DNA of 64,000 nucleotides from an uncultured Pelagibacteraceae bacterium (GTDB taxonomy: Bacteria > Pseudomonadota > Alphaproteobacteria > Pelagibacterales > Pelagibacteraceae). This document shows positions 23,433 through 25,734 of this stretch, in pieces; positions within the stretch are counted from its first letter, which is position 1; every line of letters begins with the position of its first letter. The stretch covers positions 59,629-123,628 of the forward strand of contig CACPCX010000001.1 in assembly GCA_902632545.1 (NCBI GenBank). The letters run 5' to 3'. The notes below the pieces were generated by a model. It searched no databases, was not told where the DNA came from, and saw nothing but the letters and a program-made list of their open reading frames with translations. The position numbers and the translations under genes are program-made.

Positions 23433-23455
23433 TCCATAAATTTAATTAATACGCA

Positions 23456-23517
23456 CACAGTTATTGGTTTTATACCTCCGGTCCTTAATTGGAAATTACT
23501 GTGGTGGCTTAACCGGG
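23456..23517 (+). promoter_or_regulatory. rpsB leader RNA with pseudoknot-like pairing
   Basis: CACAGT (23456-23461) can pair with ACTGTG (23498-23503). CCGGT (23478-23482), in the loop of that stem, can pair with ACCGG (23512-23516) just downstream; a U-G pair extends it by one. Together they form an H-type pseudoknot whose 3' strand covers the purine-rich CGGGA ahead of the ATG at 23525. The block is visibly more GC-rich than its surroundings. Known biology: ribosomal protein S2 autoregulates rpsB-tsf through the mRNA leader in other bacteria. That this structure does so here is inference. Confidence 0.6.
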
Positions 23518-23524
23518 AATAAAT

Positions 23525-24331
23525 ATGAAAATACCTAATATAACTATACAACAACTTTTAGAAGCAGGAGTTCATCTTGGACATAAGACTTTAAGATGGA
23601 ACCCAAAAATGAAAAAATACATTTTTGGAAAAAGAGACTCAATTCACATTATAGATTTAACCCAAACGCTTGAACTGACAAAAGTAGCTTTAGAAAAAAT
23701 TTATAACACTATAGCTAATAATGGAAAAATTTTATTTGTATCTACAAAAAAACAAGCTTCCGAAGCCATTGCAGAAGTAGCTAAGGATACAGATCAATAT
23801 TTTGTAAATTATAGATGGCTAGGAGGTATGTTAACCAATTGGGGAACAATATCTAATTCTATAAAAAAATTAAAAAAATTAGAAACTGATTTAGTAGCTG
23901 AAAACAGAGGTTTTACTAAAAAAGAACTTTTAAAAATGAGTGTTAAAAAAGACAAACTACAAAGATCATTAGGTGGAATTGCTGATATGAAAAAAGTTCC
24001 AGATTTAGTGTTTGTTATTGATACAAACTATGAGTCTTTAGCTATTGCTGAATCTTCTAAATTAGGAATACCAATTATTGCTATTTTAGATAGTAATTCA
24101 AATCCTGACAATATTGATTATCCAATTCCAGGTAATGATGATGCAAGAAGAGCTATAGATCTTTATTGCAATCTAATTAAAGAAACTATAAATAGCGCTA
24201 AAAATTCCAAACCATTATCTGAGTCAAAAAAAAATCAAGTTAATGAAAAAGATTCAAAAACAATTCAGGAATTGGATAGAGAAAAATTAGAGAAAAAATT
24301 TTCAAAAGAAGATAAGGGGAAATTAAATTAA
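23525..24331 (+). CDS. rpsB: 30S ribosomal protein S2
   Basis: S2 is a small-subunit ribosomal protein. The start [30 protein letters not shown] and [30 protein letters not shown], and [23 protein letters not shown] are diagnostic. At 268 residues it carries a charged, Lys/Glu/Asp-rich C-terminal tail of about 35 residues beyond the core. The stop and the tsf start share one base. A structured leader precedes it. Confidence 0.98.
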
Positions 24332-25182
24332 TGAGTGACATTGAAAAAGTAAAAAAACTAAGAGAATCAACTGGTGCTGGATTTAAAGATTGTAATTTAG
24401 CTATTAAAGAATCTAGTGGAGATTTAGACAAAGCAATTGAAATTTTAAGAGTAAAAGGAATTTCAAAAGCATCAAAAAAAATGTCTAGAGATGCAAAAGA
24501 GGGAGTTGTTGTTGTTAGTGCAGATCAATCAAAGACTTCAGTAATAGAAGTAAATTGTGAAACAGATTTTGTTGCTAAAAACGAGGATTTCATTACTTTT
24601 GTTAAAGAGTTAAGTGAGCTTAATAACGAAAAGAATTCAAATATTGAAGAATTAAAATCAACCAAAATGAAAAATGGTCAGACAGTTAATGATAATTTGG
24701 TAGCAATAATTGCAAAAATAGGTGAGAAAATTACAATTGGTAAAGCTAAAACAATACAAAATTCAACTGGTATAAATAATCATTACCTACATTCAGTTGT
24801 AAAAGATAATGTTGCAAAATTAGCTGTTATGGTTTCATTGGATACAAAAGATAGCTCAGAATCTGTCAAAACATTTAGTAAACAATTATCAATGCACATT
24901 GCAGCATCCAATCCGTTAGCTTTAGAATCTAGTTCTATTGATCAAGCAATAATTGATAAAGAACAAGAATTAGTCACTGAAGAATTGAAAAATTCAGGCA
25001 AACCAGAAGATATTGCTAAAAAAATTAGTCTAGGTAAAATGAATAAGTTTAAGGAAGAAAATTCTCTTCTAACACAAGCCTGGGTAATGGAACCAAAGAA
25101 AAAGGTAAAAGATGTCTTAAAAGAACTTTCTGTAGCAGATTTAAAAATTAAAGAATTTTACAGAATAAAGATTGGAGAATAA
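24331..25182 (+). CDS. tsf: elongation factor Ts
   Basis: EF-Ts recharges EF-Tu with GTP. The protein starts [37 protein letters not shown] (the UBA-like domain with TGAG) and has [17 protein letters not shown] in the dimerisation core. The 283-residue length is ordinary. It follows rpsB with a TAATG junction. frr begins directly after its stop, so no pyrH lies between them, unlike the common rpsB-tsf-pyrH-frr order. Confidence 0.98.
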
Positions 25183-25734
25183 ATGTTTGATGAAAAATCA
25201 TACAGCCTTAAAATGGATAAAGCCATTGAGGTTTTCTCGAAAGAATTATCTTCACTAAGAACTGGTAGAGCAAATGCTTCAATGCTTGATTTAATAAAAG
25301 TTGATGTTTATGGACAGCAAATGCCAATCAATCAAGTTGGAAGCATAACAACCCCCGAACCTAGAATGATAAATATTCAAGTATGGGATGCTAACAATGT
25401 ATCTCTACTTGATGCTGCAATTAAAAAATCAGATTTAGGATTGAACCCTCAAATAGATGGACAATTAATTAGATTACCAGTTCCAGAGCTGAATGAGGAA
25501 AGAAGAATGGAATTAAAAAAATTAATAAAATCTATTGGAGAAAAATGTAAAGTATCTATTAGAAATATTCGAAGAGAAGCAAATGAGGATCTAAAAAAAT
25601 TATTGAAAGATAAAGAAATCGGTGAGGATGACGAAAAAAATTATGAAAAAAAAGTTCAAACTATTACAGACAATCATATTAAGTCAGTTGATGACAAGGT
25701 ATCTTCAAAAGAAAAAGAAATAATGACAATATGA
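25183..25734 (+). CDS. frr: ribosome recycling factor
   Basis: RRF splits the post-termination ribosome together with EF-G. The sequence ELSSLRTGRANASMLDLIKVDVYGQQMPINQVGSI, the middle INIQVWDANN and the C-terminal helix VSIRNIRREANEDLKKLLKDKEIGEDD are conserved. It has 183 residues, the normal length. Its ATG directly follows the tsf stop, and its stop overlaps uppS by 4 bases. Confidence 0.98.
   Translation: MFDEKSYSLKMDKAIEVFSKELSSLRTGRANASMLDLIKVDVYGQQMPINQVGSITTPEPRMINIQVWDANNVSLLDAAIKKSDLGLNPQIDGQLIRLPVPELNEERRMELKKLIKSIGEKCKVSIRNIRREANEDLKKLLKDKEIGEDDEKNYEKKVQTITDNHIKSVDDKVSSKEKEIMTI

Follow-up and report, generated by a model that had tools for sequence, protein, structure and literature searches.

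Very probably, the pseudoknotted element at 23452–23516, upstream of the ribosomal protein S2 gene in a Pelagibacteraceae (SAR11) genome, is the SAR11 representative of a known cis-acting leader, the rpsB motif, at which S2 most likely represses rpsB-tsf by locking the pseudoknot. The leader itself is already known, having been published as the rpsB motif (Meyer et al. 2009) and catalogued as Rfam RF01815; the present analysis confirms that published leader and finds that both of its helices covary. Coordinates are those of the window, the whole stretch of 64,000 nucleotides analyzed, and all features described lie on its plus strand. The nearest rpsB relatives of the host genome are named Pelagibacteraceae, with protein identity of up to 93%.

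The leader occupies the 130-base gap between the end of dnaE (23394) and the start of rpsB (23525), and lies directly upstream of rpsB, as do the published motif and RF01815. The identities of dnaE, rpsB, tsf, and frr around it were confirmed, with rpsB (23525–24331) matching TIGR01011 at 317.7 bits and tsf (24331–25182), encoding EF-Ts and the second gene of the presumed operon, matching TIGR00116 at 247.1 bits. The upper part of the main stem, P1, consists of six base pairs between CACAGT (23456–23461) and ACTGTG (23498–23503), exactly where an earlier sequence-only reading had placed them, and three of the six pairs show double changes among relatives. Below these is a bulged A (23455), unpaired in the RF01815 alignment and invariant in 74 leaders, followed by three lower pairs joining 23452–23454 to GTG at 23504–23506. 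The lower pairs, like P2 and P3 inside the loop, were absent from that first reading; they follow the RF01815 alignment and are C-G, G-U, and C-G here; most sister-family leaders have A-U, U-A, and C-G instead. Two of the three are invariant across the 74 leaders and the middle one is weak, and the comparison supports this lower part of P1 as a whole. P1 is capped, as in the published motif and RF01815, by a junction with two short hairpins that were placed by comparative alignment: P2 (GGT/ACC, 3 bp, 23466–23476) and P3 (CC/GG, 2 bp, 23483–23492), the latter having 3 bp (CCC/GGG) in several relatives. Between the two, J2-3 carries CCGGT (23478–23482), which pairs with ACCGG (23512–23516) in the 3′ extension of P1 to give the 5-bp pseudoknot found in both descriptions. 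The 3′ strand lies at −13 to −9 relative to the rpsB ATG, 8 nt before it, which bears out the second helix of the sequence-only reading. In two diverged Pelagibacteraceae leaders (L110 and L111, 1417–1503 in each), P2 is longer, with GGGC/GCCC replacing GGT/ACC.

The main text of Meyer et al. 2009 (PMC2704228) describes the motif as P1, P2, and P3 with a J2-3 pseudoknot, present in the majority of both Alphaproteobacteria and Gammaproteobacteria, and ties it to the S2 regulation shown in E. coli. It was found there in Cand. Pelagibacter ubique, with the dnaE-rpsB gap listed. By this main-text description, the element in the window differs in nothing of kind: the organism group, the dnaE-rpsB gap, P1, P2 (3 bp), P3 (2 bp), and the J2-3 pseudoknot are the same. 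A term search of a 2020 survey of 20 ribosomal leaders did not find the S2 leader. The earlier reading had been unable to tell whether the element was catalogued and had suggested a comparison with Rfam; the answer is yes, since RF01815 matches 23452–23533 (30.9 bits, E = 3e-4). The match runs end to end and keeps the conserved blocks CCUCCGGU and GUGGUGG-UUAACCGG, while the SAR11 copy has a shorter P3, a shorter distance to the ATG, and a score below the gathering cut-off of 40 bits. For this last reason, automatic annotation misses the SAR11 copy, and tRNAs are all that Rfam finds in the window at gathering level. The gathering threshold is a database cut-off and no defining feature of the published motif, for which Cand. 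P. ubique was itself the source; the low score therefore reflects the cut-off of the model. No match to RF00127 (t44) was found in the window region or in the genome to which it belongs.

Taken from one sequence, the structure is suggested but not proven, and the evidence is modest. As the sequence-only reading had remarked, the block is richer in GC than its surroundings (45% in 23452–23516 versus 14% in the 57 bases just upstream and 28% in the whole window). The nested fold alone, without the pseudoknot, was not better than dinucleotide shuffles (z = 0.10), and when the gap was dinucleotide-shuffled 2000 times, 23 of the shuffled sequences had a 6-bp stem together with a 5-bp GC-rich pseudoknot in a comparable arrangement. 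Scanning for promoters yielded a single weak match, which shuffles equaled. It is conservation and covariation that place the structure far beyond chance.

A scripted pattern detected the leader at 126 of the 130 Pelagibacterales loci examined; at one of the remaining four the contig starts within rpsB (L079), and the other three (L113, L114, and L116) have a leader whose form fell outside the pattern. In an alignment of 74 distinct Pelagibacteraceae leaders, 98.9% of pair cells were paired, a value that dropped to 27–52% when the 3′ partners were displaced in a slid control. Six pairs had changes on both sides, in 40 such cells, versus 1.9 pairs and 8.5 cells in shuffles, and this level of covariation was attained by none of 500 shuffles. 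The P1 variants in this alignment include CG/UA/AU/GU, GC/AU, and UA/CG. In the pseudoknot, GC gives way to UA at one pair in L054 and L075, turning CCGGU/ACCGG into CCUGU/ACAGG; pseudoknot covariation within SAR11 is confined to these two sequences and may represent a single event. The same two leaders (1417–1503 in each) also differ at the end of P3, where GGAAA is replaced by GGTAA, possibly as a tertiary change linked to that in the pseudoknot. The earlier reading had made its claim depend on covariation in the two helices, and with both covarying the claim stands.

The leader is widespread in the order and extends beyond it. A covariance model built from SAR11 leaders only (R1), which scores the copy in the window at 112.8 bits, found matches in 245 of the order's 297 genomes; among the 150 with a completeness of 90% or more, 134 had a match. 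In two nearly complete genomes without a leader match (G054 and G056), rpsB was also undetectable, so assembly gaps account for at least part of the genomes lacking the leader. R1 also recovers diverse leaders of other Alphaproteobacteria, at loci initially located with RF01815, and the homology to the rpsB motif thus holds across the class with a model made from SAR11 alone. RF01815 itself matches 192 of 289 alphaproteobacterial genomes at E ≤ 1, of which 75 exceed its cut-off. The 40-bit threshold thus excludes SAR11 and most of the matching alphaproteobacterial genomes, hiding the element in the majority of those where it is detectable.

In E. coli, the rpsB 5′ UTR matches RF00127 at 83.5 bits. 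The pseudoknot is CCGGU/ACCGG in the Alphaproteobacteria, whereas E. coli shares GGGGU/ACCCC with most of the Gammaproteobacteria sampled; other gammaproteobacterial leaders have intermediate forms (CGGGU/ACCCG in L226, UGGGU/ACCCG in a further four). This change between the classes is the strongest support for the pseudoknot, within a cross-class pattern search that required perfect pairing, so that broken pseudoknots were uncountable by design. Four gammaproteobacterial loci that the search missed proved on visual inspection to contain one G-U pair, and a conserved context, GGAGG..UAACCCC, locates the 3′ strand independently of the pairing requirement. The E. coli leader (Aseev et al. 2008, cited in PMC10931766; RF00127) shares with the SAR11 copy P1, a following GUGGAGG, a 3′ strand able to pair with the loop, and the place before rpsB-tsf. 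It differs in its pseudoknot, in its longer inner stems, and in a Shine-Dalgarno site downstream of the pseudoknot, which ends 24 nt from the ATG.

The analysis itself establishes the fold, which is conserved and covaries, along with its position ahead of rpsB-tsf and its homology to the E. coli leader; by analogy with E. coli, S2 would bind the SAR11 leader as well. When S2 outnumbers the 30S subunits, the free protein, possibly joined by S1 as in E. coli, would bind the fold that P1, the bulge, and the pseudoknot form on the rpsB-tsf mRNA and lock the pseudoknot, whose 3′ strand stands 8 nt before the AUG; this would block 30S loading on rpsB and lower tsf expression. The sequence-only reading had proposed the leader as a candidate for S2 autoregulation, in agreement with the evidence and the literature, and in SAR11 it keeps the status of a candidate. 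According to a 2024 review (PMC10931766), S2 represses rpsB-tsf in E. coli through conserved features of the 5′ UTR, aided by S1, with an operator that excludes the Shine-Dalgarno site and the start codon and a mechanism that is called unclear. Occlusion of the start region, which we infer as the repressing step in SAR11, may for that reason not be the mechanism. The SAR11 form could serve as a minimal leader for the study of how S2 represses translation. A real conserved leader that responds to a ligand other than S2 alone (EF-Ts, S1, or an S2-S1 complex) is the alternative that survives best, and is unlikely. The operon also encodes EF-Ts, a few motif copies precede the EF-Ts gene according to the main text of Meyer et al. 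2009 (PMC2704228), and effective repression by S2 in E. coli needs S1 (PMC10931766). The same main text, however, places the motif directly before rpsB in nearly all cases, and S2 supplied in trans represses in E. coli (PMC10931766; PMC2704228, main text).

With S2 repression as the preferred reading, the spacing to the start codon bears on how it would operate. In 109 Pelagibacteraceae leaders the 3′ strand of the pseudoknot ends 7–10 nt before the ATG (8 nt in 102), and only 2 of these leaders have a separate Shine-Dalgarno-like word in the intervening bases. The distance is 8–10 nt in 17 sister-family leaders, which have no separate Shine-Dalgarno word and in which GGAG overlaps the pseudoknot. 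It is 12–23 nt in other Alphaproteobacteria with ATG starts, usually with AGGA or GGAG between, and 14–25 nt in the sampled Gammaproteobacteria; these ranges leave aside two wrong-strand matches (L136 and L161) and two doubtful non-ATG starts (L137 and L158). A search within the main text of Meyer et al. 2009 (PMC2704228) found no discussion of the Pelagibacterales pseudoknot-ATG geometry. Tentatively, the S2 leader may have been compacted in Pelagibacterales such that the pseudoknot itself fills the ribosome landing site. Repression would then act by occluding that site directly, in contrast to E. coli, where the operator reportedly leaves out the ribosome-binding site. Within the window, Shine-Dalgarno words precede 7 of the 55 genes versus 3–4 at control positions, and since they are this scarce throughout, their lack at rpsB is not special by itself. 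The same scarcity leaves room for a structure that helps ribosome placement, and hence for a constitutive translation-enhancing or mRNA-stabilizing element without feedback, but the location of the pseudoknot in the ribosome landing zone and the reported autoregulation of the homologous E. coli leader (PMC10931766) make this improbable.

It is very improbable that the element is a small RNA and not a leader. RF01815 and RF00127 are both typed as sRNA in Rfam, not as cis-regulatory leaders, and the E. coli annotation has tff/T44 as a putative small RNA; against this stand the spacing to the start codon, which is almost the same in every one of the 126 leaders measured, and a search between leader and rpsB that found no terminator-like site. 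Chance pairing within an AT-rich gap, for which one could cite the unremarkable single-sequence fold and the roughly 1% of shuffles with this geometry, can be practically dismissed given a structure that is conserved across the order and the class and covaries in both helices.

Downstream of the leader, tsf adjoins frr directly (24331–25734). The UMP kinase gene pyrH appears, by profile searches, to have been lost in the Pelagibacter genus: all 13 genomes searched, one of them a single contig with a listed completeness of 100%, gave only weak partial TIGR02075 matches (at most 46 bits) to larger proteins. Matches to TIGR01359 (UMP/CMP kinase family) were all below the cut-off and possibly represent adenylate kinase, and a literature search on SAR11 and pyrH found nothing relevant. 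In seven of eight sister-family genomes, a pyrH scoring above the TIGR02075 cut-off is located about 1 kb past rpsB on the contig they share.
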